From Oryzisolibacter propanilivorax (GTDB taxonomy: Bacteria > Pseudomonadota > Gammaproteobacteria > Burkholderiales > Burkholderiaceae_C): a stretch of DNA of 64,000 nt. The notes under the pieces were generated by a model. It was not told the DNA's origin, made no database searches, and saw nothing but the letters and a program-made list of their open reading frames with translations. The DNA is taken from positions 62,001 through 126,000 of the forward strand of contig NZ_FNHP01000006.1 of assembly GCF_900103645.1 (NCBI RefSeq), given 5' to 3'. The position numbers and the translations under genes were made by a program. Every line of letters begins with the position of its first letter. Position 1 is the first letter of the stretch. Below, piece by piece: positions 8,891-26,805 of this stretch.

Positions 8891-9065
8891 AAGCGGGTGG
8901 GGGGCCTCCGCGCAGTGGCGCGGCCGCGCCCCCGGCCGGGCCGCATTGTCGCCAATCTTCAGGACAGCGGCGGCCATCGCTGCGGCTCGCGCCTTGCGGC
9001 CGGGCCTGCCTTCCTCGCACTGAGATTGCCAGCCTGCCCGGCGCGGCAACGCTGGCAACCTACTA

Positions 9066-9129
9066 CCAAATCCATAGCTGGATGCCCTTTTTTGATAAGG
9101 GCCAAAGGCAGTTTTGGCTTGAAATCAGG
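9066..9129 (-). repeat. Dispersed palindromic element, copy B
   Basis: The GGCCCTTATC...AAGGGCATCCAGCTAT core on the minus strand lies at the guaD stop. The element's strong hairpin may end transcription. Confidence 0.7.
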
Positions 9130-10402: not shown

Positions 10403-10472
10403 GGCGCCACTGTACGGCTGCGCGCGGCAGGCTTCATGCGCCCATGGCGATGGGCGCTATACGCTCAGGGAA

Positions 10473-11720: not shown

Positions 11721-11861
11721 GGTGTTTCCTGTCTCGCCGGCGTGGGGTGCCGGCGCCAAGCTGCTCACCACTGCGGGCGCTCTGAGCAGGAATGAAAATC
11801 GGGCCGCGCACCAAGGCTGTGGAAGCCGGGCACCGCTGCGACCCATTTTGTGGACACGAAG

Positions 11862-11879
11862 TGTATGCAGTTTTTGCTG
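11862..11879 (+). promoter_or_regulatory. Purine-regulon operator motif, copy 1 (before puuD)
   Basis: TGTATGCAGTTTTTGCTG. It shares the core TGTAT-purine-CA-N-TTTTTG with three other sites in this purine region. It is the only such site between puuD and xdhC. The assignment to the GntR regulator of the cluster is inference. Confidence 0.6.
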
Positions 11880-11918
11880 CCAATCGCCCTAGTAGTCACC
11901 CTAGTGCGATGCAGCGGC

Positions 11919-12770
11919 TCACCCCGGTGAAAGTTGCTGCAGCAACTGCGCCGCGACCGATACGGCAATGACCTGCGGCTGCTTGCCGCCGATTCCCGGC
12001 ACACCGATGGGACAGGTCACATGGTCGAGTTCCGCCTGGCTGAACCCCCGCGCCTCCAGCCGGTGGCGGAACGTGGCCCACTTGGTGCGACTGCCGATCA
12101 GGCCGATGAATGGCAGGTCGCCGTGCTGGCGCTGGCGCTGCAGGCAAGCGGCGACCACGTCCAGGTCCTCGGCGTGGCTGAAGCTCATGATGACCACGAA
12201 CGAGTCCGGCGCCAGCGTCGGCACTGCGGCATGCACCGGCTCGGAGTGCTCGCACAGCGCATCGGGCGCGGCCTGCAGATCGAACACGCCTTCGCGGCTG
12301 TCCACCCAGTGCAGCGAAAACGGCAGCATGCCCAGCACCCGCGCCAGCGAATGCCCGACATGCCCGCCGCCGAACAGCGCCACCGGCTGCAGCGGCGGCG
12401 CCAGTCGCGTGCGCAGCGCCGGGGCGTCCTGCAGGCCCACGCATTCCAGCCGCAGCTGCACCACGCCGCCGCAGCACTGGCCCAGGCTGGGCCCCAGCGC
12501 CTGGCGCAATTCCTGCACCGGCGTGGGCTCGCCCGCCAGGTGCCGGTCCAGCATCTGCCGCGCCTGCTGCAGTGCCACCATTTCCAGGTGGCCGCCGCCG
12601 ATGGTGCCGAAGAACGCTGGCTCGCCGCGCGCCGGCACGGCCAGCCAGGCGCCGGGCTCGCGCGGCACGGAGCCCTGGGTGGCCAGCACCGTCACCAGGC
12701 AGGCAGGGGCGCGCTCCAGGCTTTGCAGCAGGCGCTGCAAGGGCTCGGTCACCGTGGTGGAGGTCATCAT
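11919..12770 (-). CDS. xdhC: Xanthine dehydrogenase accessory protein XdhC
   Basis: Chaperone of about 283 residues that binds and sulfurates molybdenum cofactor before insertion into xanthine dehydrogenase. The N-terminal XdhC domain shows VTVLATQGSVPREPGAWLAV and GTIGGGHLE; the C-terminal Rossmann-like domain shows ALFGGGHVGHSLARVL and FIGLIGSRTKWATF, ending PIGVPGIGGKQPQVIAVSVAAQLL. Two adjacent ATG codons (12770 and 12767) are possible starts, and the ribosome site is weak. The xanthine dehydrogenase subunit genes themselves are not in the window, which is unusual for xdhC. Confidence 0.93.
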   Translation of the reverse strand: MMTSTTVTEPLQRLLQSLERAPACLVTVLATQGSVPREPGAWLAVPARGEPAFFGTIGGGHLEMVALQQARQMLDRHLAGEPTPVQELRQALGPSLGQCCGGVVQLRLECVGLQDAPALRTRLAPPLQPVALFGGGHVGHSLARVLGMLPFSLHWVDSREGVFDLQAAPDALCEHSEPVHAAVPTLAPDSFVVIMSFSHAEDLDVVAACLQRQRQHGDLPFIGLIGSRTKWATFRHRLEARGFSQAELDHVTCPIGVPGIGGKQPQVIAVSVAAQLLQQLSPG

Positions 12771-12832
12771 GGGGAAAGCTCTTGTCGTTGTGTGTCGTGG
12801 CCCGGCGCTGACGCATACTGGCACGCATTGCC

Positions 12833-13357
12833 ATGCCCCACTCTTCCCGCCAGCGCGATCGAAGCCGCGCAACATCGGATCCTGCTGCGATCTGGCGCCG
12901 CATTCTGGCCCTGTTCGGCCATTCTGTTCCGTCGCAACCGGCACCGGAAACCCAAGCCGCTACGTTGCCGCAGCCCCGGCCGCGCACGGAGGCGGTCAAT
13001 CCGCCCGCTGCGCCGGCATCGGCTGCTGCCAGTGACCGCGACTACCGCCGCGATGCCGCGGCGCATGTGTATGCCTTGAACGCCGGGCGCATCTACCAGG
13101 GCCCGCTGCCGCCGCTGCTGCATGCGATCGGCGTGCTGCAGGTGGAGATCGAGGCCAGCGGTGCGGTGCGGCAGCTGCGCTGGCTGCGCGCGCCGCGCCA
13201 TGCGCCGCAGGTGGTGGCCGAGATCGAGCGCACGGTACATGCCGCCGCTCCGTTCCCGGCACCGCTGCGCCTGGGCCGGGTGACCTACACCGACACCTGG
13301 CTGTGGGATGAGTCCGGGCGCTTCCAGCTGGACACGCTGACCGAAGGCCAACTGTGA
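12833..13357 (+). CDS. Hypothetical protein with TonB-C-like half
   Basis: Protein of 174 residues not confidently recognised. The first 60 residues are polar and Pro/Ala-rich with no signal peptide. From about residue 70 the sequence AAHVYALNAGRIYQGPLPPLLHAIGVLQVEIEASG..VRQLRWLRAPRHAP resembles the TonB C-terminal/AgmX-type fold seen in small Comamonadaceae proteins. It starts 62 bases from the xdhC start in divergent orientation, and it ends against uraH in convergent orientation. The protein-like C-terminal half and the placement argue it is real. A role in purine breakdown is not demonstrated. Confidence 0.65.
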   Translation: MPHSSRQRDRSRATSDPAAIWRRILALFGHSVPSQPAPETQAATLPQPRPRTEAVNPPAAPASAAASDRDYRRDAAAHVYALNAGRIYQGPLPPLLHAIGVLQVEIEASGAVRQLRWLRAPRHAPQVVAEIERTVHAAAPFPAPLRLGRVTYTDTWLWDESGRFQLDTLTEGQL

Positions 13358-13379
13358 CCGCCGCAGCCGCCGCTGCGGC

Positions 13380-13730
13380 TCAGGAGCCGCGGTAGGTCGA
13401 GTACGACCAGGGGCTGACCAGCAGCGGCACGTGGTAGTGCTGATCGGCGTGCGCGATGCCGAAGTCCAGGCTCACGCGGTCCAGGAAGTTGGGCTCGGGC
13501 AATTGCACGCCGCGCGCCTTGAAGTAGGCCGCGACGTCGAAGGTCAGGCGGTAGGTGCCGGTGCGCAGGCTGTCGTTGTCGAACAGCGGGCCATCGGTGC
13601 GGCCGTCATGGTTCAGCACCAGGCGCTTGATCAGGGTGGCCTGATCGCCGTCGGTGGAATACAGGGCGATGGCCATGCCGGCGGCCGGGCAGCCGTTCAT
13701 GGTGTCGAGGACGTGGGTGCTCAGGCCCAT
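13380..13730 (-). CDS. uraH: 5-hydroxyisourate hydrolase (transthyretin-like)
   Basis: Enzyme of 116 residues opening 5-hydroxyisourate to OHCU, the step after PuuD. Family marks are complete: LSTHVLDTMNGCPA at the N terminus with the active-site His, an HYHVPLLVSPWSYSTYRGS end with the C-terminal YRGS tetrad, and the conserved Arg between them. The ATG at 13730 has AGGAG ten bases upstream, which decides against the longer in-frame start. It is separated from the upstream glxR gene by a terminator hairpin and an operator motif, so it is probably its own transcription unit. Confidence 0.95.
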   Translation of the reverse strand: MGLSTHVLDTMNGCPAAGMAIALYSTDGDQATLIKRLVLNHDGRTDGPLFDNDSLRTGTYRLTFDVAAYFKARGVQLPEPNFLDRVSLDFGIAHADQHYHVPLLVSPWSYSTYRGS

Positions 13731-13787
13731 GGTGGAAGTCTCCTGAAGGGGCGGACTCTGCGGCCCGCCTGCCATGTTGAGGGAATC

Positions 13788-13837
13788 AAAAAAAGACGCC
13801 GCGGCCCGTCGGCTGCGTGCCGCCAGGCCGCGGCGCC
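13788..13837 (-). terminator. Intrinsic terminator after glxR
   Basis: On the minus strand a perfect GGCCGCGGC/GCCGCGGCC stem (13826-13834 with 13798-13806) is followed by a run of seven T. It lies after the glxR stop and before uraH. Confidence 0.75.
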
Positions 13838-13854
13838 ATCAAAGGACGGCAAAG

Positions 13855-13872
13855 TGTATACAGTTTTTGTAC
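13855..13872 (+). promoter_or_regulatory. Purine-regulon operator motif, copy 2 (before uraH)
   Basis: TGTATACAGTTTTTGTAC, about 125 bases upstream of the uraH start and immediately after the glxR stop. It shares the 18-bp pattern of the sites at 11862, 20195 and 25207. On the minus strand the TATACA could also serve as a -10 element. Confidence 0.6.
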
Positions 13873-13897
13873 GCCTTTGCCGCCCCCTTCCCTGTTT

Positions 13898-14815
13898 TTA
13901 CGATTCCTGGACCTTCTGGCCGACCTCGAAGTTGGCCATGAACTCCAGCGCGCGCACCATGCCCGAGTGGTCCCAGGCTGCGCCGCCGTGCGCCACGCAG
14001 GCGTTGAACAGCTGCTGCGCGTTTGCGGTGTTGGGCAGCGACACGCCCAGTTCCTTGGCGGCCGACAGCGCTAGATTCAGGTCCTTCTGGTGCAGTGCGA
14101 TGCGGAAGCCCGGATCGAAGGTGCGCTTGATCATGCGCTCGGCGTGCACTTCCAGGATCTTGGAGGAAGCAAAGCCGCCCAGCAGGGCTTCGCGCACGCG
14201 GGCCGGGTCGGCACCGGCACGCGAGGCGAACAGCAGCGCCTCGCCCACGGCCTCGATGTTCAGCGCGACGATGATCTGGTTGGCCACCTTGGCGGTCTGG
14301 CCGTCGCCGTTGCCGCCCACCAGGGTGATGTTCTTGCCCATTTTTTCGAACAGCGGCTTGACGCGGGCAAAGGCTGCATCGGGGCCGCCGACCATGATCG
14401 ACAGGGTGGCGTTCTTGGCGCCGACCTCGCCACCGGAGACGGGAGCATCCAGGTACTGGGCGCCGGCAGCCTCGATGCGCTTGGCGAAGTCCTTGGTGGC
14501 CACGGGCGAGATGGAGGACATGTCGACCACGATCTTGCCGCTGCTGCCCTTCAGGCCGGCGGCCACACCGTCTTCGCCGAACAGCACCTTCTCCACGTCG
14601 GGAGTGTCGGGCACCATCACGAAGATGATGTCGGCGCGCTCGGCCACGCCGCGGGCGGTGGTGCACTGGGTGGCGCTGCTCTCGGCGATGGGCGCCGGCA
14701 CCTTGCCCACGGTGTTGACGAACAGCTGGTGGCCGGCAGCAATCAGGTGGCCGCACATGGGCGCGCCCATGATGCCCAGGCCGATGAAACCGAGCTTGAG
14801 GGAAGAGGCGTTCAT
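13898..14815 (-). CDS. glxR: Tartronate semialdehyde reductase (2-hydroxy-3-oxopropionate reductase)
   Basis: NAD(P)H-dependent enzyme of 305 residues reducing tartronate semialdehyde to D-glycerate. It has the beta-hydroxyacid dehydrogenase layout: GLGIMGAPM dinucleotide motif at the N terminus, the substrate signature DAPVSGGEVGAKNATLSIMVGG around residue 120, and the catalytic Lys in the GNGDGQTAKVANQI segment. It is the third gene of a gcl-hyi-glxR operon on the minus strand and follows hyi with about 93 bases between. The ATG at 14815 has AGGAG upstream. The operon order and family marks make the call firm. Confidence 0.94.
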   Translation of the reverse strand: MNASSLKLGFIGLGIMGAPMCGHLIAAGHQLFVNTVGKVPAPIAESSATQCTTARGVAERADIIFVMVPDTPDVEKVLFGEDGVAAGLKGSSGKIVVDMSSISPVATKDFAKRIEAAGAQYLDAPVSGGEVGAKNATLSIMVGGPDAAFARVKPLFEKMGKNITLVGGNGDGQTAKVANQIIVALNIEAVGEALLFASRAGADPARVREALLGGFASSKILEVHAERMIKRTFDPGFRIALHQKDLNLALSAAKELGVSLPNTANAQQLFNACVAHGGAAWDHSGMVRALEFMANFEVGQKVQES

Positions 14816-14908
14816 GGTTTTTCTCCTAATGGTTCTGGGGGTCAAGGCTGGCCCGGCGCAGCGTTGCATGCGCGGGCCGCAGATCGGGCGCTACTCGCCC
14901 TGTAAAGC

Positions 14909-15712
14909 TCAGGCAGCGACGGCGGAGCGCTTCTGGCCGGCCACCTTCTCGATCCAGCCCAGGCCGGCCTCGGTGCTGGCGGCAGGCTTGTATTCGCAGC
15001 CTACCCAGCCGGCATAGCCGATGCGGTCGAGCAGCGCGAACAGGAACGGGTAGTGGATCTCGCCGGTGCCGGGCTCGTTGCGGCCGGGATTGTCGGCCAG
15101 CTGCACGTGGCCGATGCGCGCCAGATGCTTTTGCAGCGTGGCGGCCAGCTCGCCTTCGGTGCGCTGGGCGTGGTAGATGTCGTACTGCACGAAGGCGTTG
15201 TCCGCGCCGACTTCGTCCAGGATGGACAGGGCCTCGTCCGTGCGGTTCAGGTAGAAGCCGGGGATGTCGAACGGGTTGATGGGCTCGATCAGCAGGCGCA
15301 GGTCGGCCATCTTCAGCGCGGCGGCGGCGAAGCGCAGGTTCTCGACGAACGTGCGGCGCAGCGTGGCGGCGTCGACGCCGGCCGGCGCCTTGCCGGCCAG
15401 GCAGTTCAGCTGCGGCACGCCCAGGGCGTGCGCATAGGTCACGGCCTTGGCCACGCCGGCGCGGAATTCGTCCACGCGCTTGGGGTCGCAGGCGATGCCG
15501 CGCTCACCCGCGTCCCAGTCGCCGGCGGGCAGGTTGTGCAGCACGATCTTCAGGCCGGTGGCGTTCAGGCGCTCCTGGATCTCCTCGACGGTGTGGGCGT
15601 AGGGAAACAGGAACTCCACGGCTTCGAAGCCAGCATTGGCGGCGCGCTCGAAGCGCTCGAGGAACGGCACCTCGGTGAAGAGCATGCTCAGGTTGGCAGC
15701 AAAACGGGGCAT
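14909..15712 (-). CDS. hyi: Hydroxypyruvate isomerase
   Basis: TIM-barrel enzyme of 267 residues interconverting hydroxypyruvate and tartronate semialdehyde. It opens MPRFAANLSMLFTEVPFLERF and contains LLIEPINPFDIPGFYLN, HVQLADNPGRNEPGTGEI and YAGWVGCEYKPA, which carry the metal-binding acids and histidines typical of Hyi. The ATG at 15712 has GGAG upstream; an in-frame longer start adds 20 unrelated residues. It lies between gcl (89 bases upstream) and glxR on the same strand, the order known from other glyoxylate-assimilating bacteria. Confidence 0.94.
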   Translation of the reverse strand: MPRFAANLSMLFTEVPFLERFERAANAGFEAVEFLFPYAHTVEEIQERLNATGLKIVLHNLPAGDWDAGERGIACDPKRVDEFRAGVAKAVTYAHALGVPQLNCLAGKAPAGVDAATLRRTFVENLRFAAAALKMADLRLLIEPINPFDIPGFYLNRTDEALSILDEVGADNAFVQYDIYHAQRTEGELAATLQKHLARIGHVQLADNPGRNEPGTGEIHYPFLFALLDRIGYAGWVGCEYKPAASTEAGLGWIEKVAGQKRSAVAA

Positions 15713-15801
15713 GGCCAGGATCTCCAGGGAACGGTTTTTATCGGGAAGAAAGCAAATGCGAGGCAGGGCCACCGGCCCCGCCCCGTTCGGACACGCAGGT
15801 G

Positions 15802-17592
15802 TCAGTCAAGCATGGCCAGCGCGCTGGGCACGTCGGCCTTGTCCGAGGCGACGTCCTCGAACTCGACCACATTGTCGATCTCGGTGCCCATGGCGATGTT
15901 GGTCACACGCTCCAGGATGCACTCGATGACCACCGGCGTCTGGTGCTCGGCCATCCAGGCCTCGGCCTGCTTCATGGCGGCGTTGAACTCATCCGGGCTG
16001 TGCACGCGGATGGCCTTGCAACCCAGGCCCTCGACGACCTTGACGTGGTCCACGCCGTAGCCGCGGCTGACCTCGTCCTCGGACATGTTGATGTTGTCGA
16101 ACGCCAGCTGCACGCAGTAGTCGATGGAGAACGCGCGCTGTGCCTGGCGGATCAGGCCCAGGTAGCTGTTGTTCACCAGCACATGCACGTAGGGCAGCTT
16201 GAACTGCGCGCCCACGGCCAGCTCCTCGATCATGAACTGGAAGTCGTAGTCACCCGACAGCGCGACGATCTTGCGCTTGGGGTCGGCAGCGCGCACGCCC
16301 AGGGCGGCAGGCACGGTCCAGCCCAGCGGGCCGGCCTGGCCGCAGTTGATCCAGCGGCGCGGCTTGTACACGTGCAGGAACTGGGCACCGGCGATCTGCG
16401 ACAGGCCGATGGTGGACACGTAGGTCGTGTCGCGGTCCAGGTTGCGGTTCATGCACTGGTACACGCGCTGGGGCTTCATCGGCACGTTGTCGAAGTTGGT
16501 CTTGCGCAGGTACTCGACGCTGTTCTTGCGGCCCTGGCACTCGGAGACCCAGGCGCTGCGGTCCTTGAGCTTGCCGGCGGCCTTCCACTCGCGGGCCACG
16601 GCGACGAACTGCTCCAGCGCCGCCTTGGCGTCCGAGACGATGCCGTAGTCGGGCGCGAACACGCGGCCGATCTGCGTGGGCTCGATGTCCACGTGCACGA
16701 ACTTGCGGCCGCGGGTGTAGACCTCGACCGAGCCGGTGTGGCGGTTCGCCCAGCGGTTGCCGATGCCGAACACGAAGTCCGACGCCAGCATGGTGGCGTT
16801 GCCGTAGCGGTGGCTGGTCTGCAGACCGCACATGCCGGCCATCAGCGGGTGGTCGTCGGGAATGGTGCCCCAGCCCATCAGCGTGGGGATCACCGGCACG
16901 TTCAGGATTTCGGCCAGCTCGACCAGCAGGTCGGAGGCGTCGGCATTGATCACGCCGCCACCGGAGACGATCAGCGGACGCTCGGACTCGCCCAGCATCT
17001 CGATGGCCTTCTCGGCCTGCTTGCGCGAGGCGGCCGGCTTGTACGCGGGCAGCGGCTCGTAGGTGTCGATGTCGAACTCGATCTCGGCCAGCTGCACGTC
17101 GATCGGCAGGTCGATCAGCACCGGACCGGGACGGCCCGAGCGCATCAGGTGGAAGGCCTGCTGGAAGGCGCGCGGCACCTGGGCCGGCTCGAGCACGGTG
17201 GTGGCCCACTTGGTCACGGGCTTGGCGATGGAGGCGATGTCCACGGCCTGGAAGTCTTCCTTGTGCAGGCGGGCACGCGGCGCCTGGCCGGTGATGCACA
17301 GGATCGGGATGGAGTCGGCGCTGGCCGAGTACAGGCCGGTGATCATGTCGGTGCCGGCCGGGCCGCTGGTGCCGATGCACACGCCGATGTTGCCGGCCTC
17401 GGCACGGGTGTAGCCCTCGGCCATGTGGCTGGCGCCCTCGACGTGGCGGGCCAGGATGTGGCCGATGCCGCCGTGCTTCTTCATTGCCGCGTACAGCGGG
17501 TTGATTGCCGCGCCGGGAACGCCGAACGTGATGCTGACGCCTTCCTTTTCCAGAACCTGGACGGCTGCCTCGATCGCTTTTATCTTTGCCAT
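15802..17592 (-). CDS. gcl: Glyoxylate carboligase (tartronate-semialdehyde synthase)
   Basis: ThDP- and FAD-binding enzyme of 596 residues that condenses two glyoxylates to tartronate semialdehyde and CO2, close to the E. coli Gcl length. The N-terminal [16 protein letters not shown] is present. The valine where other ThDP enzymes have a catalytic Glu is the Gcl-specific feature to look for near residue 50. The [17 protein letters not shown] and [12 protein letters not shown] motifs bind ThDP-Mg. The start codon at 17592 has AAGGAG upstream. It heads the gcl-hyi-glxR operon and is divergent from a LysR regulator that likely controls it. Confidence 0.96.
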
Positions 17593-17671
17593 GGTGGCTA
17601 TCTCCTTAAAACCTGGAGCCGACTGTAGGCAGCGGTGCCGCTTTCGGGAACGCCCGTGGAGGCTATAAAAT

Positions 17672-17690
17672 TTATTCCCCCAAGGAATAA
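17672..17690. promoter_or_regulatory. Inverted repeat between gcl and lysR
   Basis: A perfect TTATTCC / GGAATAA repeat separated by five bases lies between the divergent gcl and lysR starts, close to lysR. LysR-type proteins bind such partial dyads in divergent promoter regions and usually autoregulate, so this is a good candidate site for the neighbouring regulator (inference). Confidence 0.55.
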
Positions 17691-17707
17691 CAGGCGGGAA
17701 ACAGCCC

Positions 17708-18676
17708 ATGAGCGAACGCGAACGCAGCAGCAGCCGCCGGCAGGCGATGGACCGCATCGACGCCATGCACATGTTCGTGCGCGTGGCCGAGACCGGCAGC
17801 TTCACCAAGGTCGCGCACGAGTTCACCACCACCCAGCCCACCGTGACCAAGCAGGTGGCGGCGATGGAGGCGCGCCTGGCGGTGCGCCTGCTCAACCGCA
17901 ACACGCGCGGGGTCAGCCTGACCGAGGCCGGGGCGCTGTACTACGAGCGCTGCAAGGCCATCGTCTCCAGCGTCGCCGAGGCCGAGAGCGCCGTGCGCGG
18001 GCCGCAGACGCGCGTGCAGGGGCAGCTGCGCATCGGCAGCTCGGTGGCGTTCGGGCGGCGCGTGGTCATCCCGCTGGCGTTGGAGTTCATGCAGCTCAAC
18101 CCCGAGGTGCAGGTGGACCTGAGTTTCGAGGACCGCTACACCGACCTGGTGGCGCACGGCATCGACGTGGCGCTGCGCCTGGGCAAGCTGGCGGACTCGT
18201 CGCTGGGCGCGCGCACGCTGGGCGTCAATCCTTGGGTGCTGGTGGCCTCGCCGCGCTACCTGCGCCAGCACGGCACGCCGCGCCGCCCGGCGGACCTGCG
18301 CGACCACGCCACGCTGATCTACAGCAGCGTGCAGGGCAACGATGTCTGGCGCATGCGCGGCGCGCAGGGCGAGCAGGTGTCCGTCACCGTCACCGGTCGG
18401 CTGCGCTCGAACAACCTGTCGGCGCTGCTGGCCGCGGCGCGCTCGCACATGGGCATCGCTGCCGTGCCGCGCTATGTGGCGCACGAGTCGCTGCAGGACG
18501 GGCGCATCGTCGAGGTGCTCAAGGCCTGCCGGCTGCCCGAGCAGGAGATCCACGCCGTCTACCCGTCGCCGCGCCTGGTGCCGCAGAAAGTGCAGGCCTT
18601 CATCGCCTTCCTGCAGGGGCGCTTCGACCAAGAATGGTGGGAGGCGCTGGGGCGCGAGGATGCTATCAAGAAGTGA
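17708..18676 (+). CDS. LysR-family transcriptional regulator
   Basis: Regulator of 322 residues. The winged helix-turn-helix lies at about 18-75 ([52 protein letters not shown]), followed by a periplasmic-binding-like effector domain. It is divergent from gcl with a strong inverted repeat in the shared intergenic region, so it probably controls glyoxylate carboligase, with an effector such as glyoxylate or a related acid (inference). The last codons (EDAIKK) fall inside a dispersed palindromic element, so the C-terminal end may have been set by that insertion. Confidence 0.9.
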
Positions 18677-18730
18677 GCTGGAAGCCCTCTGAGACAAAGG
18701 GCTTGCAGCACTTTTGACTTAAAAACGGCG
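18660..18730 (-). repeat. Dispersed palindromic element, copy C
   Basis: On the minus strand AAGTCAAAAGTGCTGCAAGC, then CCTTT and a loop, then GGGCTTCCAGCT. It overlaps the last codons of the LysR gene and reaches to the glycerate kinase stop. Confidence 0.75.
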
Positions 18731-18731
18731 A

Positions 18732-20054
18732 TTACAGGACCAGCAGCGCGCGGAAGTCGTTGACGTTGGTGTGCGTGGGTCCGGTGACCACCAGGTCGCC
18801 CAGGCCGCCGAAGAAACCGTAGGCGTCGTTGCGCTCCAGGTAGTCGGTCAGGCGCTGGCCCTTGGCCTGCGCGCGCGCCAGCGTGTCGGGCGCGACGCGG
18901 GCGCCGGCGTTGTCCTCCACGCCATCGATGCCATCGGTGTCCGCCGCCAGCGCCCAGACGTTGTCCTGGCCCTGCAGCGCCTGCGCCAGGCCCATGCAGA
19001 ACTCCCCGGCACGCCCGCCGCGACCCTTGGCGGCGCCGGGCTGGCGCGGACGGATGGTCACTGTGGTCTCGCCGCCCGACAGGAGGACGCAGGGCCGCGC
19101 AAAGGGCTGGTCGTGGCGCGCCACGGCGCGGGCCAGCGCGGCGTGCACCTTGCCGACCTCGCGCGACTCGCCCTCAATCTCGTCGGACAGGATGTGCGCG
19201 GCCACGCCGGCGGCGCGCGCGGCCTCGGCCGCCGCCTCCAGCGACTGCTGCGGGGTGGCGATCAGGTGCACCTCGTGGCCGGCGAAGCGCGCGTCACCGG
19301 GCTTGGGGGTCTCGAGCGTGCCGGCCTCCAGGGCGGCGCGCACGCTCGGGGCGATGTCGATGCGGTAGCGCGTGAGGATGGCCAGGGCGTCGGCGCAGGT
19401 GCTGGCATCGGGCACCGTGGGGCCGCTGGCGATGATGGACGGGTCGTCGCCCGGCACGTCGCTGATGGCCAGCGTGACCACGCGCGCCGGCGCGCAGGCC
19501 GCCGCCAGGCGCCCGCCCTTGATGCGCGAGAGGTGCTTGCGCACGCAGTTCATCTCGTCGATGGCGGCGCCGGACTCGAGCAGCGCGCGGTTGATGCGCT
19601 GCTTGTCGCCCAGCGTGATGCCCTCGGCCGGCAAGGTCAGCAGCGCCGAGCCGCCGCCCGAGATCAGGCACAGCACCAGATCGTCCTCGGACAGGCCGCG
19701 CGTCAGCTCCAGGATGCGCCCGGCGGCGGCCAGGCCGGCGGCGTCGGGCACCGGGTGCGCGGCCTCGACCACCTCGATGCGCTGGGCCAGGCCTTCGGGG
19801 CGCGGCGGCGTGTGGTCGTAGCGCGTGACCACCAGGCCCGACAGCGGCGCGTCCTGCGGCCACAGCGCCTCCAGCGCGTGCGCCATGGCGCCGCCGGCCT
19901 TGCCCGCGCCCAGCACCAGGGTGCGTCCCTTGGGCGGCGGCGGCAGGTGGCGCTCCATGCCGTGCAGCGGCTGGGCGCTTTGCACCGCGGTCTGGAACAG
20001 CGACAGCAAGAAGCCTTGCGGGTCGGCGAGCTGCGGGCGGGAAGGCGTGGTCAT
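18732..20054 (-). CDS. Glycerate kinase, MOFRL/TtuD family
   Basis: Enzyme of 440 residues phosphorylating D-glycerate, almost certainly to 2-phosphoglycerate as in the GckA/TtuD family. Conserved segments are VLGAGKAGGAMAHALE, LISGGGSALLTLPAEGITLGDKQ, NCVRKHLSRIKGGRLA and a late ALAADTDGIDGVEDNAGARV. The ATG at 20054 is decided by the match of the following residues to the family and by a weak upstream ribosome site. It completes the glyoxylate-to-phosphoglycerate route begun by gcl. Transcription would start in the region shared with the GntR gene, which contains an operator motif. Confidence 0.92.
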   Translation of the reverse strand: MTTPSRPQLADPQGFLLSLFQTAVQSAQPLHGMERHLPPPPKGRTLVLGAGKAGGAMAHALEALWPQDAPLSGLVVTRYDHTPPRPEGLAQRIEVVEAAHPVPDAAGLAAAGRILELTRGLSEDDLVLCLISGGGSALLTLPAEGITLGDKQRINRALLESGAAIDEMNCVRKHLSRIKGGRLAAACAPARVVTLAISDVPGDDPSIIASGPTVPDASTCADALAILTRYRIDIAPSVRAALEAGTLETPKPGDARFAGHEVHLIATPQQSLEAAAEAARAAGVAAHILSDEIEGESREVGKVHAALARAVARHDQPFARPCVLLSGGETTVTIRPRQPGAAKGRGGRAGEFCMGLAQALQGQDNVWALAADTDGIDGVEDNAGARVAPDTLARAQAKGQRLTDYLERNDAYGFFGGLGDLVVTGPTHTNVNDFRALLVL

Positions 20055-20194
20055 GTAGGTGTCTCCGTGGAAATGGGGCGCCCGTGCGGGCGAAAAAACC
20101 TGTGGCGATCGGCATGCCGCGGCAGGCTGCGGCGGCGTCTGGCAGCCACTCAGGGCGCATTGGGGCACGAGCCAGCACAAATTACAAGATTAGT

Positions 20195-20212
20195 CCACAA
20201 AAATTGCATACA
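20195..20212 (-). promoter_or_regulatory. Purine-regulon operator motif, copy 3 (between glycerate kinase and gntR)
   Basis: Read on the minus strand the site is TGTATGCAATTTTTGTGG, matching the other three copies. A further AATTTTTG half-site adjoins it on the upstream side. It lies 31 bases before the GntR start and about 140 bases before the glycerate kinase start, as expected for autoregulation plus target control. Confidence 0.65.
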
Positions 20213-20242
20213 AAAATTGTGTTCCGCCGGTATGATGGGCCT

Positions 20243-20920
20243 ATGGAGACTTCCACCACTGGCTTTATCGTCGAGAGTCTGACGCGCGCCATCGTCGAGC
20301 ATCGCCTGCTGCCCGGCACCAAGCTGGCCGAGCAAAAGCTGGCCGACCATTTCGGCGTCTCACGCACGCTGGTGCGCCAGGCACTGTTCCAGCTGTCGCA
20401 AAACCGCCTGATCCGCCTGGAGCCGGCGCGCGGCGCGTTTGTCGCCACGCCCTCGGTGCAGGAGGCGCGCCAGGTCTTCGCCGTGCGCCGCATGGTCGAG
20501 AGCGCCATGGTGCGCGCCTTCCTGGCGCAGAGCACCGCGGCGCAGATCCGCGCCCTGAAAGCCCACGTCGCGGCCGAGAAGAAGGCCATGGACGGCGGCG
20601 ACGTCAACCAGCGCACCGAGCTGCTGGGCGACTTCCACGTGCGCATGGCCGAACTGATGGGCAACGACGTGCTGGCGCAGCTGCTGGGGGAGCTCATCTC
20701 GCGCTGCGCACTGATCACGCTGATGTACCAATCCACCAGCGCCGCCGAACACTCCCACGAAGAACACGAGGCCATCGTCGCCGCCCTGGCGCGCCGCGAC
20801 GAGGAAGCTGCCGTGCGGCTGATGCAGGAGCACCTGGACAACGTGCAGGCCGGCCTGCAGTTCGACCGCGAGCTTCCCACCAGCGACCTGTCCCACGCCC
20901 TCTCGGGCGCCCTTGGTTGA
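20243..20920 (+). CDS. GntR-family (FCD domain) transcriptional regulator
   Basis: Regulator of 225 residues. The winged helix is at about 15-75 (LAEQKLADHFGVSRTLVRQALFQLSQNRLIRLEPARGAFV), followed by an all-helical FCD effector domain with conserved His residues. It begins 31 bases after an operator-like motif and is followed after 12 bases by puuE, so it is probably the first gene of the puuE-uraD/allC-M20 transcript. Of the two regulators in the cluster it is the better candidate for binding the four repeated operator sites because one lies right in front of it. Repression relieved by a purine catabolite is expected but not shown. Confidence 0.92.
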   Translation: METSTTGFIVESLTRAIVEHRLLPGTKLAEQKLADHFGVSRTLVRQALFQLSQNRLIRLEPARGAFVATPSVQEARQVFAVRRMVESAMVRAFLAQSTAAQIRALKAHVAAEKKAMDGGDVNQRTELLGDFHVRMAELMGNDVLAQLLGELISRCALITLMYQSTSAAEHSHEEHEAIVAALARRDEEAAVRLMQEHLDNVQAGLQFDRELPTSDLSHALSGALG

Positions 20921-20932
20921 TTCCATCCTGCC

Positions 20933-21892
20933 ATGACGAAGATCTACGACGCCTGCTCCTCCTACCCGCGCGACCTGGTCGGCTACGGCCGCCACACGCC
21001 GCACCCGCACTGGCCCGGCGGCGCCCGCGTGGCGGTGCAGTTCGTGCTGAACTACGAGGAAGGCGGCGAGAACCATGTGCTGCACGGTGACGCCGGCAGC
21101 GAGCAGTTCCTGTCCGAGCTGTTCAATCCGGCGTCCTATCCCGAGCGCCACATGAGCATGGACGGCATCTACGAATACGGCTCGCGCGCCGGCGTGTGGC
21201 GCCTGCTGCGCGAGTTCGAACGCCGCGGCCTGCCGCTGACGGTGTTCGGCGTGGCCACGGCCCTGAAGCGCCACCGCGAGCTGGCCCAGGCCTTCGACGA
21301 GCTGGGCCACGAGGTGGCCTGCCACGGCCTGAAGTGGATCCACTACCAGGGCATGTCCGAGGAGGTCGAGCGCGCGCACATGCAGGAATGCCTGGCGATC
21401 TTCGACGAGCTGTACGGCCAGGGCACGGACCACGCCCTGGGCTGGTACACCGGGCGCGACAGCCCCAACACCCACCGCCTGGTGGCCGATGCCGGCCGCT
21501 TCGTCTACGACAGCGACTACTACGGCGACGACTTGCCGCTGTGGATGCGCGTGGGCAAGACCGACGGCAGCCCGGCCACGCAGCTGATCGTGCCCTACAC
21601 GCTGGACTGCAACGACATGCGCTTCGCCCTGCCCCAGGGCTACTCGCACGCCGACCCGTTCTTCCAGTACATGAAGGACAGCTTCGACGTGCTGTATGCC
21701 GAGGGCGACCCGGCCGGCGACAACGCACCCAAGATGATGAGCATCGGCATGCACTGCCGCCTGCTCGGCCGTCCGGGCCGCATCACCGCGCTGCAGCGCT
21801 TCCTGGACCACATCCAGCAGTACCCGGACGTCTGGGTGTGCCGCCGCATCGACCTGGCGCGGCACTGGGCGCAGCAGCACCCGGCGCCGTAA
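20933..21892 (+). CDS. puuE: Allantoinase PuuE
   Basis: Enzyme of 319 residues hydrolysing allantoin to allantoate. It belongs to the polysaccharide-deacetylase-like allantoinase group, not the metal-dependent amidohydrolases. Typical parts are the opening YPRDLVGYGRHTPHPHWPGGARVAVQFVLNYEEGGEN, the SMDGIYEYGSRAGVWRLL segment, a GHEVACHGLKWIHYQ block and SIGMHCRLLGRPGRI near the end. It follows the GntR gene by 12 bases and precedes the UraD-AllC fusion, so enzymes for consecutive steps are adjacent. Confidence 0.95.
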   Translation: MTKIYDACSSYPRDLVGYGRHTPHPHWPGGARVAVQFVLNYEEGGENHVLHGDAGSEQFLSELFNPASYPERHMSMDGIYEYGSRAGVWRLLREFERRGLPLTVFGVATALKRHRELAQAFDELGHEVACHGLKWIHYQGMSEEVERAHMQECLAIFDELYGQGTDHALGWYTGRDSPNTHRLVADAGRFVYDSDYYGDDLPLWMRVGKTDGSPATQLIVPYTLDCNDMRFALPQGYSHADPFFQYMKDSFDVLYAEGDPAGDNAPKMMSIGMHCRLLGRPGRITALQRFLDHIQQYPDVWVCRRIDLARHWAQQHPAP

Positions 21893-21897
21893 AACCA

Positions 21898-21957
21898 AGG
21901 CAAATCATGCGCCAGCCCTTTGGATACATGGGCTGGCAGCTATCTTTTTCGTAGTGA
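21898..21957 (+). repeat. Dispersed palindromic element, copy D
   Basis: Core CCAGCCCTTTGGATAC then ATGGGCTGGCAGCTATC. It lies between puuE and the UraD-AllC gene, inside a probable operon. Confidence 0.75.
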
Positions 21958-21971
21958 TACAAGGAGACACC

Positions 21972-23759
21972 ATGGCCCTGACCCTGGACCAACTCAATGC
22001 TGCCTCGACCCAGGAGGCCGTGGCGCTGCTGGACGGCGTGTACGAACACTCGCCCTGGATTGCCGAGGCGGCCCTGGCGCAGCGCCCGTTCAAGTCGCTG
22101 GCGCACCTCAAGCACGCCATGGTGCAAGCGCTGGAAGCGGCCGGCGTAGACAAGCAGCTGCAGCTCATCCGCGCCCACCCGGAGCTGGCAGGCAAGGCCA
22201 TGGTCAGCAACACGCTGACGGCCGAATCGACCAACGAGCAGAACAAGGCGGGCCTCACCAACTGCACGCCCGAGGAGTTCGCGCGCATCCAGGAGCTGAA
22301 CCGCCTGTACAACGAGCGCTTCGGCTTTCCGTTCATCCTGGCCGTGCGCGGCCCGCGCGGCCTGGGGTTGCCCAAGCAGGAAATCATCGACACCTTCGAG
22401 CGCCGGCTGCACAACCACCCCGACTTCGAGCGCGGCGAGGCGCTGCGCAACATCCACCGCATCGCCGAGATCCGCCTGAACGACAAGTTCGGCTACGAGC
22501 CGACGCTGGGCCACGACGTCTGGGACTGGCAGGAGCGCCTGAGCACCAACAGCGACCCGGGCTATGCCGAGAAGGGCCAGCTCACCGTCACCTACCTGAC
22601 CGACGCACACCGTGCCTGCGCCCAGCGCATCAGCCACTGGATGCGCGACTGCGGCTTCGACGAGGTCGAGATCGATGCCGTGGGCAACGTGGTTGGGCGC
22701 TACCACCCGGCCGAGACGGGCGGCAAGTACGTCCTCACCGGCAGCCACTACGACACGGTGCGCAACGGCGGCAAGTACGACGGGCGCCTGGGCATCTTTG
22801 TGCCTATGGCCGTGGTGCGCGAACTGCACCGCGCCGGCCGCCGCCTGCCCTTCGGGCTGGAGGTGGTGGGCTTTGCCGAGGAAGAAGGCCAGCGCTACAA
22901 GGCCACCTTCCTGGGCTCGGGCGCGCTGATCGGCGACTTCCAGCAGGAGTGGCTGGACCAGAAGGACGCCGACGGCATCACCATGCGCGAGGCGATGGAG
23001 CATGCCGGCCTGTGCATCCCCGACATCCCGAAGCTCAAGCGCGACCCGTCCAAGTACCTCGGCTTCATCGAGGTGCACATCGAGCAGGGCCCGGTGCTGA
23101 CCGAGCTGGACATCCCGCTGGGCGTGGTCACCTCGATCAACGGCAGCGTGCGCTACGCCTGCGAGATGCGCGGCATGGCCAGCCACGCCGGCACCACCCC
23201 AATGGACCGCCGCCGCGACGCCGCTCTGGGCGTGGCCGAGCTGGCGCTGTACATGGAGCAGCGCGCCGCGCGCGACGGCAACAGCGTGGCCACCATCGGC
23301 ATGCTGGAAGTGCCCTCGGGCTCGATGAACGTGGTGCCCGGCCGCTGCAAGTTCAGCATGGACCTGCGCGCGCCGACCAACGAGCAGCGCGACTCCCTGG
23401 CCGCTGACATTCTGGCCAAGCTCGACGAGATCGCCCAGCGCCGCGGCCTGCAGTACACCACCGAAAAGACCATGGAAGCGGCCGCCGCGCCGAGCTGCCC
23501 GACCTGGCAAAAGCGCTGGGAAAACGCCGTGCAGGCTCTGGGCGTGCCGCTGTTCCGCCTGCCCAGCGGCGCCGGCCACGACGCCATGAAGCTGCACGAG
23601 GTCATGCCCCAGGCCATGCTGTTCGTGCGCGGCATCAACAGCGGCATCAGCCACAACCCGCTGGAGTCGAGCACCAGCGACGACATGCAGCTGGCGGTGG
23701 ATGCGTTCAGCCACGTGCTGGAGCAGCTCGCCGACGAGATGGCCACCGAGACCGCCTGA
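21972..23759 (+). CDS. Bifunctional OHCU decarboxylase - allantoate amidohydrolase (UraD-AllC fusion)
   Basis: Fusion protein of 595 residues. Residues 1 to about 170 are OHCU decarboxylase (UraD), with IRAHPELAGKAM containing the catalytic His and RFGFPFILAVRG near the end, so OHCU would be converted to S-allantoin. From about 195 onward is an M20-family allantoate amidohydrolase: GSHYDTVRNGGKYDGRLG, EEEGQRYKATFLGSGAL, FIEVHIEQGPVL, MASHAGTTPMDRRRDA and SGAGHDAM, with all metal ligands apparently kept. It therefore catalyses the steps on either side of allantoinase, whose gene is directly upstream. AAGGAG precedes the ATG. Confidence 0.94.
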   Translation: MALTLDQLNAASTQEAVALLDGVYEHSPWIAEAALAQRPFKSLAHLKHAMVQALEAAGVDKQLQLIRAHPELAGKAMVSNTLTAESTNEQNKAGLTNCTPEEFARIQELNRLYNERFGFPFILAVRGPRGLGLPKQEIIDTFERRLHNHPDFERGEALRNIHRIAEIRLNDKFGYEPTLGHDVWDWQERLSTNSDPGYAEKGQLTVTYLTDAHRACAQRISHWMRDCGFDEVEIDAVGNVVGRYHPAETGGKYVLTGSHYDTVRNGGKYDGRLGIFVPMAVVRELHRAGRRLPFGLEVVGFAEEEGQRYKATFLGSGALIGDFQQEWLDQKDADGITMREAMEHAGLCIPDIPKLKRDPSKYLGFIEVHIEQGPVLTELDIPLGVVTSINGSVRYACEMRGMASHAGTTPMDRRRDAALGVAELALYMEQRAARDGNSVATIGMLEVPSGSMNVVPGRCKFSMDLRAPTNEQRDSLAADILAKLDEIAQRRGLQYTTEKTMEAAAAPSCPTWQKRWENAVQALGVPLFRLPSGAGHDAMKLHEVMPQAMLFVRGINSGISHNPLESSTSDDMQLAVDAFSHVLEQLADEMATETA

Positions 23760-23790
23760 TCCAGTCCCGAATACCCAAGGAGCATTACCG

Positions 23791-25059
23791 ATGAATCCCG
23801 ACCGCCAAGCCACCTACGCCGCCCTGGACGCCTGGATCGACCAGCACTTCGACGAACAGGTGCAGTTCCTGCAGGAACTGGTGCGCGTGCCCACCGACAC
23901 CCCGCCCGGCAACAACGCGCCGCACGCCGAGCGCACCGCCGAGCTGATCGCCCCCTTCGGCTTCGAGGCAGAGCGCCATGCCGTGCCCGAGGCCGAAGTG
24001 CGCGACTACGGCATGCAGTCCATCACCAACCTGATCGTGCGCCGCCCCTACGGCGACGGCGGCCGCACCGTCGCGCTGAACGCGCACGGCGATGTGGTGC
24101 CCCCGGGCGAAGGCTGGACGCACGACCCCTACGGCGCCGAGATCGTGGACGGGGCCATGTACGGCCGCGCCACCGCCGTGAGCAAGAGCGACTTCTCCAC
24201 CTTCACCTTCGCCGTGCGCGCGCTGGAGGAGGTGGCCAAGCCGGCCAAGGGCGCGGTCGAGCTGCACTTCACCTATGACGAGGAGTTCGGCGGCCTGCTG
24301 GGCCCCGGCTGGCTGCTGGCGCAGGGTCTGACCAAGCCGGACCTGATGATCGCCGCCGGCTTCAGCTACGAGGTGGTGACCGCGCACAACGGCTGCCTGC
24401 AGATGGAGATCACCGTGCACGGCAAGATGGCGCACGCTGCGGTGCCCGAGACCGGCGTGGACGCGCTGCAGGCCGCCACGGCCATCATGAACGGCCTGTA
24501 CGCCGAGAACGTGAAGTACAAGGCCGTGCGCTCCCAGGTGCCGGGCATCAACCACCCGTACGTGAACATCGGCCGCATCGAGGGCGGCACCAACACCAAT
24601 GTGCTGCCCGGCAAGGTGGTGCTGAAGATCGACCGCCGCATGATCCCCGAGGAGAACCCGGCCGAGGTGGAAGCCAGCATCCGCGGCGTGATCGACCAGG
24701 CGGTGCAGAGCTTCAACACCGAGCGCGGCTACACCGGCGAGGACGCCGTGCGCGTGGAGATCAAGCGCCTGCTGCTGGCCAACGCCATGACGCCGCTGGC
24801 CGGCAACGCCCCGCTGGTGGACGCCATCCAGCGCCACGGCGAGCAGCTGTTCGGCGCCAAGCCCCCGGCCGTGGGCACGCCGCTGTACACCGACGTGCGC
24901 CTGTACGTCGAGCGCGGCATTCCCGGCGTGATCTACGGCGCCGGCCCGCGCACGGTGCTGGAAAGCCATGCCAAGCGCTCAGACGAGCGCGTGCAGCTGG
25001 AAGACCTGCGCCGCGCCACCAAGGTGGTGGCGCGCAGCCTGGTGGATCTGCTCGCCTGA
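23791..25059 (+). CDS. M20-family peptidase/deacylase-like protein with degenerate metal site
   Basis: Protein of 422 residues in the ArgE/DapE-like M20 group. It keeps HGD at 99-101, a DEE at 163-165 with the catalytic Glu, and a C-terminal His at 393. By eye, the bridging Asp expected in the GRGxxDxK motif is Val130 (GRATAVSKSD), and the Glu expected in GEPT is Ala or Gly near 189. Such changes would remove one metal site. It lies 31 bases after the UraD-AllC gene with AAGGAG before its ATG, and ends at a terminator, so it belongs to the purine operon. It could act on ureidoglycolate or another carbamoyl compound, or have a non-catalytic role; function unknown. Confidence 0.85.
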   Translation: MNPDRQATYAALDAWIDQHFDEQVQFLQELVRVPTDTPPGNNAPHAERTAELIAPFGFEAERHAVPEAEVRDYGMQSITNLIVRRPYGDGGRTVALNAHGDVVPPGEGWTHDPYGAEIVDGAMYGRATAVSKSDFSTFTFAVRALEEVAKPAKGAVELHFTYDEEFGGLLGPGWLLAQGLTKPDLMIAAGFSYEVVTAHNGCLQMEITVHGKMAHAAVPETGVDALQAATAIMNGLYAENVKYKAVRSQVPGINHPYVNIGRIEGGTNTNVLPGKVVLKIDRRMIPEENPAEVEASIRGVIDQAVQSFNTERGYTGEDAVRVEIKRLLLANAMTPLAGNAPLVDAIQRHGEQLFGAKPPAVGTPLYTDVRLYVERGIPGVIYGAGPRTVLESHAKRSDERVQLEDLRRATKVVARSLVDLLA

Positions 25060-25089
25060 CACGGCGCCAGCAGCCCCGCACATGACCCG

Positions 25090-25112
25090 ACCCGGCCAAG
25101 GCCGGGTTTTTT
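25090..25112 (+). terminator. Intrinsic terminator of the purine operon
   Basis: An ACCCGGCC/GGCCGGGT stem with a two-base loop is followed by six T, just after the M20-like gene. Confidence 0.9.
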
Positions 25113-25206
25113 CATGGCTTCCTGACAACCCTTTGAGCCTGGACAAAACCTACATGACTCAGGGTTTTCACCGCCGGGTTTCCCCCTTCTGCGTCATACG
25201 CCGTTT

Positions 25207-25224
25207 TGTATACACTTTTTGTAT
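25207..25224 (+). promoter_or_regulatory. Purine-regulon operator motif, copy 4 (before NCS2 permease)
   Basis: TGTATACACTTTTTGTAT, 94 bases upstream of the permease start. It is the closest of the four copies to the shared consensus, with a second TTTTGTAT half-site overlapping the first. Confidence 0.65.
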
Positions 25225-25317
25225 GGATCGGTGTGCGCAATCTGGCGCCGATCCGGTATAGAGGCCTGCCCCAGGGCAGTGCCGCAACAGCATATCGAGG
25301 AACCAAGGAAGACCCTC

Positions 25318-26805
25318 ATGGCAACGTCCGTCCATCCTGTCGACGAAAAACTCCCGTGGGGCCGCGCCACCACGCTGGGCCTGCAGCACGTGCTGGTGAT
25401 GTATGCCGGCGCAGTCGCCGTGCCGCTCATCGTCGGGCGCGCGCTGAACCTGCCGCCCGACCAGGTGGCGCACCTGATTTCCGCCGACCTGTTTGTCTGC
25501 GGCCTGGTCACGCTGATCCAGGCCTGGGGCATGACGCAGTGGTTCGGCATCAAGCTGCCGGTGATGATGGGCGTGACGTTTGCCGCCGTGGCGCCCATGG
25601 TGTCGATGGCACAGGCCAATGGCGGGCAGGTGGGCGCGGGGCTGATCTTCGGCTCGGTCATCGGCGCCGGCATTGTCTCGATCCTGATCGCACCGGCGAT
25701 GAGCCGCATGCTGCGCTTCTTCCCGCCGGTGGTCACCGGCACCATCATCGCGGTCATCGGCATCAGCCTGATGCGCGTGGGCATCAACTGGATCTTCGGC
25801 AACCCCGTCGGCCCCACGGCCCCTTCCGTGCCCAACCCCGAGCACCTGAAGTGGCTGGCCGAGGCGCAGGCCGCCGCCGGCGCGCCCGGCTCGTCGCTGC
25901 CGCCGGTGCCCAAGGGCTTCGCCGTGGTGCCCACGGTGCCCAACCCCAAGTACGCCGACCTGACCGGCGTGGGCATCTCGGGCATCGTGCTGGTGACTAT
26001 CCTGCTGATCGCGCGCTTCGGCCGCGGCTTCTGGGCCAACATCTCGGTGCTGCTGGGCATCATCGTCGGCGGCGTGATCACCGCCGCCATGGGCCTGATG
26101 AACTTCAGCAAGGTCGGCAAGGCCAACTGGTTCGACGTCATCCTGCCGTTCCAGATCGCCACGCCGGTGTTCGACCCGATCCTGATCCTGACCATGACGC
26201 TGGTGATGATCGTGGTGATGATCGAGTCCACCGGCATGTTCCTGGCCCTGGGCGACATGACCGGCAAGGAGATCACCCCCGCAGACTTGAAGCGCGGCCT
26301 GCGCACCGACGGCCTGGGCACGCTGATCGGCGGCATCTTCAACACCTTCCCCTACACCAGCTTCTCGCAGAACGTGGGCCTGGTGGCGGTGACCGGCGTG
26401 AAGAGCCGCTGGGTCTGCATCGCGGGCGGCTTCATCCTGATCATCCTGGGCGTGCTGCCCAAGATGGCCGCGCTGATCGAGTCCCTGCCCACCGTGGTGC
26501 TGGGCGGCGCCGGCCTGGTGATGTTCGGCATGGTGGCTGCCACCGGCATCCGCATCCTGTCAACCGTGGATTTCCAGCGCAACCGCAACAACGCCATGAT
26601 CGTCGCCGTGTCCATCGGCGTGGGCATGATTCCGCTGGTCGCGCCGAACTTCCGCCAGTGGATGCCGCACGGCATCCACCCGCTGATCGAATCCGGTATC
26701 CTGCTGTCTTCGCTCGCGGCGGTGGCCCTGAACGTGTTCTTCAACGGCGCCAGCCACGACACCTCGGCGGCTGTGCTGGCCGCCAAGCAGGCCGATGCCC
26801 ACTGA
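25318..26805 (+). CDS. NCS2 (NAT) family purine permease
   Basis: Inner-membrane symporter of 495 residues with about twelve to fourteen hydrophobic segments. The family signature QNVGLVAVTGVKSR is present (SFSQNVGLVAVTG), and GLQHVLVMYAGAVAVPLIVG opens the first helix. An Ala/Pro/Gly-rich loop after the fourth helix (near 175-205) is longer than usual. The operator motif upstream and the neighbouring urate and allantoin genes point to urate or xanthine as substrate rather than uracil (inference). The ATG at 25318 has AAGGAAG upstream; a 33-residue in-frame extension would cross the regulatory region. Confidence 0.92.
   Translation: MATSVHPVDEKLPWGRATTLGLQHVLVMYAGAVAVPLIVGRALNLPPDQVAHLISADLFVCGLVTLIQAWGMTQWFGIKLPVMMGVTFAAVAPMVSMAQANGGQVGAGLIFGSVIGAGIVSILIAPAMSRMLRFFPPVVTGTIIAVIGISLMRVGINWIFGNPVGPTAPSVPNPEHLKWLAEAQAAAGAPGSSLPPVPKGFAVVPTVPNPKYADLTGVGISGIVLVTILLIARFGRGFWANISVLLGIIVGGVITAAMGLMNFSKVGKANWFDVILPFQIATPVFDPILILTMTLVMIVVMIESTGMFLALGDMTGKEITPADLKRGLRTDGLGTLIGGIFNTFPYTSFSQNVGLVAVTGVKSRWVCIAGGFILIILGVLPKMAALIESLPTVVLGGAGLVMFGMVAATGIRILSTVDFQRNRNNAMIVAVSIGVGMIPLVAPNFRQWMPHGIHPLIESGILLSSLAAVALNVFFNGASHDTSAAVLAAKQADAH

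Follow-up and report, generated by a model that had tools for sequence, protein, structure and literature searches.

Positions 9128 to 26805 of the window, by which we mean the whole 64,000-nucleotide stretch of DNA that was analysed, form one long purine cluster that ends in genes for a PuuE-type allantoinase, a UraD-AllC fusion, an M20-fold protein and a xanthine permease. The cluster also includes guanine deaminase, XdhC and 2-hydroxy-3-oxopropionate reductase, and genes for hydroxypyruvate isomerase, glyoxylate carboligase and glycerate kinase were named by eye, with the glycerate kinase match falling below its cut-off. The product of the M20 gene at 23791-25059 (+) is here named M20v, and the end of the cluster reads as follows.

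20084..20920, + strand: probable GntR-type regulator, assigned by eye and sharing 37% identity with an annotated GntR protein of locus L187
20933..21892, + strand: PuuE-type allantoinase, matched by a curated model
21954..23759, + strand: UraD-AllC fusion (OHCU decarboxylase plus allantoate amidohydrolase), matched by a curated fusion model, AllC ligand motifs intact
23791..25059, + strand: M20v, an M20-fold protein of 422 aa without the metal ligands expected at Val130, Ala189 and the Lys395 position (open reading frame, Pfam and alignments)
25219..26805, + strand: xanthine permease of the PbuX type, matched by a curated model

The fusion protein scores 1093.6 bits against the curated fusion model (cut-off 1087), and the GntR-type regulator has no NCBIfam match at E <= 1e-60. 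The initial annotation had placed an M20-family gene 31 bases downstream of UraD-AllC, and this holds: the stop of the fusion lies at 23759, M20v starts at 23791, its 422-aa frame is intact, and both M20 domains exceed their curated cut-offs, with 84.5 bits against 24.6 for PF01546 (Peptidase_M20) and 66.7 against 21 for PF07687 (M20_dimer). These two domains are all that Pfam returns at E <= 0.001, a match to PF04115 (AllA-type) being absent, and the ArgE/DapE deacylase model TIGR01910 reaches 210.3 bits, just below its cut-off of 217.6. A structure predicted from 57 sequences (mean pLDDT 87.6, pTM 0.86) superposes on the solved M20 structure 3pfo over 400 residues with Z 40.1 and 2.8 A. 3pfo, at 24% identity, is the top solved relative, followed by 7uoi (Z 39.4, 27% identity), and a sequence search of solved chains found none nearer to M20v than these two. 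A degenerate gene or a sequencing error was ruled out by the stop-free matches, the dN/dS values and the intact AllC motifs: no internal stops occur among the M20v matches listed from the family genomes, and dN/dS against 10 orthologues is 0.10-0.40 (dS being unsure at this G+C). In one 80% complete genome (G041) the M20v gene is split over two frames, and in G104 and G246 the copies are cut off at contig ends.

M20 enzymes share a conserved two-metal centre. In M20A enzymes, two zinc ions are held by two histidines, two glutamates and a bridging aspartate (PMC11511702). The corresponding positions of M20v were placed in two ways, once with MAFFT against canonical M20 proteins of other genomes and once by aligning a profile of 57 M20v orthologues to a profile of 8 canonical proteins, and the following features emerged.

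24085..24093, + strand: codons 99-101 (H-G-D), retained ligand His99 and Asp101, in 134 of 134 rows
24166..24195, + strand: codons 126-135 (RATAVSKSDF), the GRGxxDxKG motif with Val130 in place of the bridging Asp, from the alignments
24277..24285, + strand: codons 163-165 (DEE), catalytic Glu164 and ligand Glu165, invariant
24352..24366, + strand: codons 188-192 (AAGFS), the PEP/GEP ligand motif with Ala189 in place of Glu, from the alignments
24433..24435, + strand: codon 215, invariant; this is the His that the dimerisation domain contributes in canonical M20 proteins
24967..24975, + strand: codons 393-395 (H-A-K), variable His393 and, at the place of the canonical ligand His, Lys395, from the alignments and the tree

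Both placements agree that His99, Glu164 and Glu165 are kept, that the bridging Asp has become Val130, the Glu has become Ala189, and the C-terminal His has become Lys395. The initial annotation had counted two replaced ligands, and both replacements are real across the subfamily, but the count falls short in the clade of the window, where three of five ligands are gone since Lys395 must be added. It was right about Val130, and right that His99 and the Glu164-165 pair are retained; the loss of the GEPT-type Glu near 189, which it had read as Ala or Gly, also stands, the residue being Ala and not Gly. Its reading of His393 as a retained ligand did not survive, as position 393 varies among H, N and G and the profile alignment matches the canonical His of H-x-x-D-E to Lys395. 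Pairwise HMMER alignments to 3pfo did put His393 on the ligand His, via a gap opened after His393, and we disfavour this pairing because position 393 varies and the far clade described below is fixed for His395. In the predicted structure, residues 388-394 have pLDDT below 50, so the placement of Lys395 cannot be judged from it. A shift of the ligands to neighbouring positions such as 133 had also been envisaged; residue 133 is Ser, and no alignment moves a ligand Asp to Asp134. Asp134 itself is invariant (134/134 rows) where most of the canonical proteins aligned have Gly, and the model places it at the first turn of helix 131-149, one helical turn past Val130, so that, judged from sequence, it could be a displaced carboxylate that has taken on part of the role of the bridging Asp. 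Alignment drift was ruled out by two internal controls, the AllC half of the fusion and the DapE-like protein L002, the other M20 match in the genome, both of which keep their ligand motifs. In the AllC half, His265, Asp276, Glu310/311, His375 and His567, which we take to be its ligand motifs, are retained in all 76-78 aligned rows.

A usable match was found in 180 loci, and 160 full-length family members gave 134 distinct rows including that of the window; identical rows alone were merged and many close kin are present, so the rows are not independent. The 115 rows with at least 60% identity to the M20v of the window are called near rows and the remaining 19 far rows. Among the near rows, Val130 occurs in 115, Ala189 in 114 (Pro in one) and Lys395 in 115, and position 393 is His in 103, Asn in 11 and Gly in one. 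The far rows carry Val130 in 18 of 19 (one Thr), Ala189 in 18 (one Ser) and His395 in all 19, with Asn in 16, Arg in two and His in one at position 393. Ten residues do not vary in any of the 134 rows: H99, D101, K132, D134, E164, E165, H215, N270, D281 and R282. The replaced residues are thus fixed, or nearly so, as Val130 and Ala189 among close homologues, the comparison that the initial annotation had named as a check. In a tree of 20 near representatives, the 19 far rows and 5 distant canonical outgroup proteins, built by a quick method and with 18 open forks, all Lys395 rows form one clade (SH-aLRT 100) among His395 members when rooted on the distant canonical proteins; Asn393 is frequent on the early branches of this clade, and the branches leading to L138 and L191 are long. 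The most parsimonious account is an early loss of two ligands, followed by loss of the third in the clade of the window alone. L191, at 9001-10185 of its locus on the Tistrella mobilis plasmid pTM3, is a long-branched member of 43% identity with His at both 393 and 395, and it should help in rooting the ligand losses.

From sequence, a one-metal site formed by H99, E165 and H395 is plausible in the far clade, and this bears on the proposal that M20v is itself an M20-type amide hydrolase holding one unusual metal on His99, Glu165 and a displaced ligand such as Asp134 or His393. In its favour, none of His99, Glu165 and Asp134 varies, M20 structures with a single zinc have been solved (3isz, 4o23), and the far clade, by keeping His395, could hold one metal. 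Set against this, His393 is replaced by N or G in 12 of the 115 near rows and Lys395 is present in 115 of 115, which leaves two certain protein ligands, and we regard a single-metal M20v as improbable. The altered single-metal site using His393 that had been put forward earlier is weakened in particular, given the variation at 393 and the presence of Lys395, in this clade, at the real position of the third ligand.

In the family of the window, as drawn by the search tool, 205 of 250 genomes have a match at E <= 1e-60, and among 369 genomes spread over the class, matches at E <= 1e-40 occur in three, all belonging to that family. A phylum-wide sample gave matches at E <= 1e-30 in 34 of 349 genomes, of which 18 have their best match at 2e-127 or lower and the other 16 at 1.7e-36 or higher; the empty gap between the two groups indicates that M20v is a discrete subfamily. 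Plasmid records contributed 36 matches of at least 43% identity, from Variovorax, Azospirillum, Roseomonas, Aminobacter, Caballeronia, Burkholderia and Tistrella hosts, and 4 more at 30% or less. Phage records contained 23 matches, of which 5 were listed at 23-26% identity.

The assignment of M20v to purine breakdown in the initial annotation is well borne out by its coupling to AllC. In 79 of 80 loci, M20v is immediately preceded by an AllC gene of the same orientation, and a median of 26 bases separates the two matches. The remaining locus, L096, is on a short MAG contig in which PuuE is still present. The frequent locus order is GntR, PuuE, UraD-AllC and M20v, then often a xanthine permease. 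Across the 250 family genomes, 201 have both M20v and AllC, 4 have M20v only, 4 have AllC only and 41 have neither (thresholds 1e-60 for M20v and 1e-70 for AllC; Fisher p 1e-37 without correction for kinship), and five of the eight single-gene genomes are 65-85% complete. AllC stands directly 5' of M20v in Azospirillum plasmids and in a Roseomonas plasmid, where the two genes overlap by one base, and an Aminobacter plasmid carries racemase-PuuE-AllC-M20v, three further genes, and then urea transport and urease genes. These AllC partners from the far clade keep His395, so the third ligand loss is not needed for the link to AllC. The arrangement also varies: in G885 (L177, Lys395 clade), urate oxidase and LysR genes lie between M20v and an opposite-strand UraD-AllC. 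The 2.6 Mb genome G006, which has no PF04115 or urease matches, has AllC without M20v; its UraD-AllC gene lies at 6766-8571 of L204 (G006:C16), with neither M20v nor PuuE in the 18 kb fetched.

Pseudoenzymes often stabilise or gate partner enzymes, and M20v might likewise be a non-catalytic partner of AllC that acts through the M20 dimerisation domain, stabilising AllC or gating its product. The tight coupling just described, including the one-base overlap in Roseomonas and the 201/4/4 co-occurrence, would suit such a role, as would a dimerisation domain retained while the metal ligands were lost. It is harder to reconcile with the invariance in 134 rows of the Glu pair, His99-Asp101 and His215, which a scaffold would not need, with family members away from AllC, and with the full ligand motifs of the AllC half, and for these reasons we consider a purely structural partner unlikely.

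The enzymes that would be expected to follow AllC give a further clue. The product of AllC is ureidoglycine, which ureidoglycine aminohydrolase (UGHY) converts to ureidoglycolate (PMC4016543), and ureidoglycolate in turn gives glyoxylate and urea, through lyase action or spontaneously, or is hydrolysed to glyoxylate and ammonia (PMC3793230; PMC3527362). The survey of family genomes covered M20v, AllC, UGHY, PF04115 and urease, while ureidoglycolate amidohydrolase (UAH) was checked in the genome of the window, where no second AllC/UAH-type protein was found at E <= 1e-8. None of the 201 genomes carrying M20v and AllC has UGHY (TIGR03214) above its cut-off; the one genome of the 250 in the family that does has neither M20v nor AllC, and 45 others give weak matches below the cut-off. 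PF04115 is present in 42 of the 201 genomes, 32 of them at E < 1e-20, and has no match in 159. The initial annotation had described the ureidoglycolate step as otherwise missing here, which is correct for the operon and incorrect for the genome, as another contig carries a PF04115 gene.

G000:C19:1049-1504 (L182 977-1618), minus strand: AllA-type gene of the window's genome, identified by PF04115

This gene passes a subfamily model and none of the seven equivalog models listed, and its neighbours, a short-chain dehydrogenase, an MFS transporter and a GntR-type regulator, form a non-purine setting. Urease has no match at E <= 1e-100 in the genome of the window or in either of the two sampled congeners. 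Among 240 genomes, taken from the listing by assumption to be those numbered G000-G239, urease is absent from 35 of the 193 with M20v and AllC, and PF04115 occurs in one of these 35 (that of the window) versus 39 of the 158 with urease (p 0.002, uncorrected for kinship). The retention of M20v and AllC in 35 urease-free genomes suggests that M20v is not coupled to a route yielding urea; the pathway is kept where urea would be a dead end, unless there is another urea-using enzyme.

These data bear directly on the idea that M20v degrades ureidoglycolate, standing in either for AllA (giving urea and glyoxylate) or for UAH (giving ammonia, CO2 and glyoxylate). In its favour, PF04115 is missing from most of the genomes with the gene pair, the Aminobacter plasmid has urea transporter and urease genes three genes past PuuE-AllC-M20v, and the cluster of M20v in the window contains a glyoxylate-to-glycerate gene. 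On the other hand, L171, from an alphaproteobacterium as judged by its place outside the class of the window and its likeness to named ones, holds AllC, M20v and AllA within about 10 kb, which weakens a simple replacement of AllA by M20v, at least there. A urea product is also at odds with the 35 urease-free genomes unless some other enzyme uses the urea, and UAH-type chemistry, in the known UAH and AAH enzymes, uses metals, for which the Lys395 clade lacks the customary binding site. Ureidoglycolate moreover decays spontaneously (PMC3527362). Degradation of ureidoglycolate as the main function is accordingly a possibility that we find doubtful.

Not all members accompany AllC. In the far clade, those away from it, of about 49-54% identity and with His395 kept, are L130/L179, L131/L180, L132/L181, L189, L173, L192, L187 and L172. 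Their neighbours include kynureninase and tryptophan dioxygenase (L173), kynureninase (L192), a sarcosine-oxidase-like fusion (L179, with a gene of similar size there in L180 and L181), a deaminase-type amidohydrolase (L172), and a deaminase-type amidohydrolase, a C-N hydrolase and a racemase (L187). A member of the Lys395 clade, L178 (G768, 8995-10221), likewise lies away from AllC, beside a DAO-family FAD oxidoreductase and an alanine racemase. The AllC-free far members probably act on other substrates with the same altered centre, and together with L178 their non-purine settings indicate that the family is not bound to ureides. The purine link of M20v might also be a genomic habit, with something else as the real substrate, such as an N-acyl or N-carbamoyl molecule present in the medium. 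Members beside amino-acid, kynurenine and deaminase genes would fit this; the adjacency of AllC and M20v across Burkholderiales and several alphaproteobacterial genomes, and the joint gain and loss of the two genes in the family surveyed, would not, and an incidental purine link seems very unlikely to us.

We therefore prefer, tentatively and at somewhat less than even confidence, to see M20v as an active M20 descendant that works on the product of AllC without the usual metal centre, most likely by releasing ammonia from ureidoglycine. Since the ligand losses are common to its relatives, M20v is probably a reworked enzyme for a later step of the pathway, and the ureidoglycine step is our first choice in view of the pairing of M20v with AllC, the absence of UGHY, the ability of M20v to co-exist with AllA and the lack of any need for urease. 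M20v would take (S)-ureidoglycine and release ammonia to give ureidoglycolate, the conversion that UGHY performs elsewhere, and it may also aid the collapse of ureidoglycolate to glyoxylate. N-acyl aminal and hemiaminal substrates of this kind should be able to fall apart by acid-base chemistry with no metal-activated water required, and such breakdown by proton transfer would suit a fold whose acid-base residues are kept while its metal ligands are lost. Glu164/Glu165, His99-Asp101 and His215 would serve in proton transfer and substrate orientation, and Lys395 may give the positive charge formerly provided by metal. Also in favour of this reading, ten residues are invariant although non-ligands have become fixed, or almost so, at three ligand positions, a glyoxylate-to-glycerate gene belongs to the cluster of the window, and the M20 fold has an aminohydrolase precedent in 5-nitroanthranilate aminohydrolase. 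Against it stand G006, the AllC partners that keep His395, the AllC-free members, and G854, which has AllC-M20v and, in a separate cluster, UGHY and AllA, so that M20v is not a strict replacement of UGHY. It could also be that spontaneous decay, rather than M20v, makes UGHY dispensable.

The anomaly in M20v is hence real, conserved and deeper than first noted, in a protein with a strong pathway link and a putative catalytic role. A still more tentative scenario is that this M20 lineage passed from two metals through a possible one-metal stage, seen in the far clade with H99, E165 and H395, to a metal-free form with Lys395, and that in many Burkholderiales the latter performs the ureidoglycine/ureidoglycolate step, releasing ammonia with no need for UGHY, AllA or urease. 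If this is true, a large retained M20 subfamily without a metal centre would be a natural experiment in the loss of a metal cofactor, in which the far clade looks like a still-living intermediate stage. M20v is also a candidate to fill the ureide gap in the surveyed family, whose genomes with M20v and AllC are without UGHY over the cut-off and mostly without an AllA-type lyase. Searches of open-access literature for M20v, for its step in the pathway, for fitness data and for M20 enzymes depleted of metal turned up nothing recognisable as concerning this protein, and in the available part of a review of inactive metallopeptidase homologues M20 appears only in reference identifiers (PMC11266112). 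The annotation of members as ArgE/DapE deacylases or M20 metallo-hydrolases probably misleads as to both substrate and mechanism.

Compared with known systems, M20v resembles the M20 metallohydrolases of ArgE, DapE and CPG2 type in its fold, both domains, the HxD and Glu-Glu motifs and the His motifs of the dimerisation domain, but differs in that the bridging Asp, the second Glu ligand and the C-terminal His ligand are replaced and that it falls below the cut-off of TIGR01910. With UGHY/YlbA (TIGR03214) it would have in common the proposed step, right after allantoate amidohydrolase, whereas UGHY/YlbA has the unrelated cupin fold (its model is named 'ura-cupin') and M20v consists of M20 domains only in Pfam. 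AllA/DAL3 (PF04115), which stands for the alternative proposed step, is unrelated in sequence. UAH (4pxe) and AAH (4pxd) have the M20 fold in common with M20v at Z of about 28, and the step of UAH is the alternative one that M20v might perform; UAH binds metals, both enzymes using them, its chemistry attacks the ureido carbonyl, and it is AllC-like, unlike M20v. A closer structural parallel is 5-nitroanthranilate aminohydrolase (5k8m, 5k8n, 5k8o, 5k8p), an M20-fold aminohydrolase with Z of about 37 to the M20v model at 22-23% identity, whose entries include, by their titles, Mn-bound, Zn-bound and apo forms; it acts on another substrate, and its likeness to M20v is one of fold.
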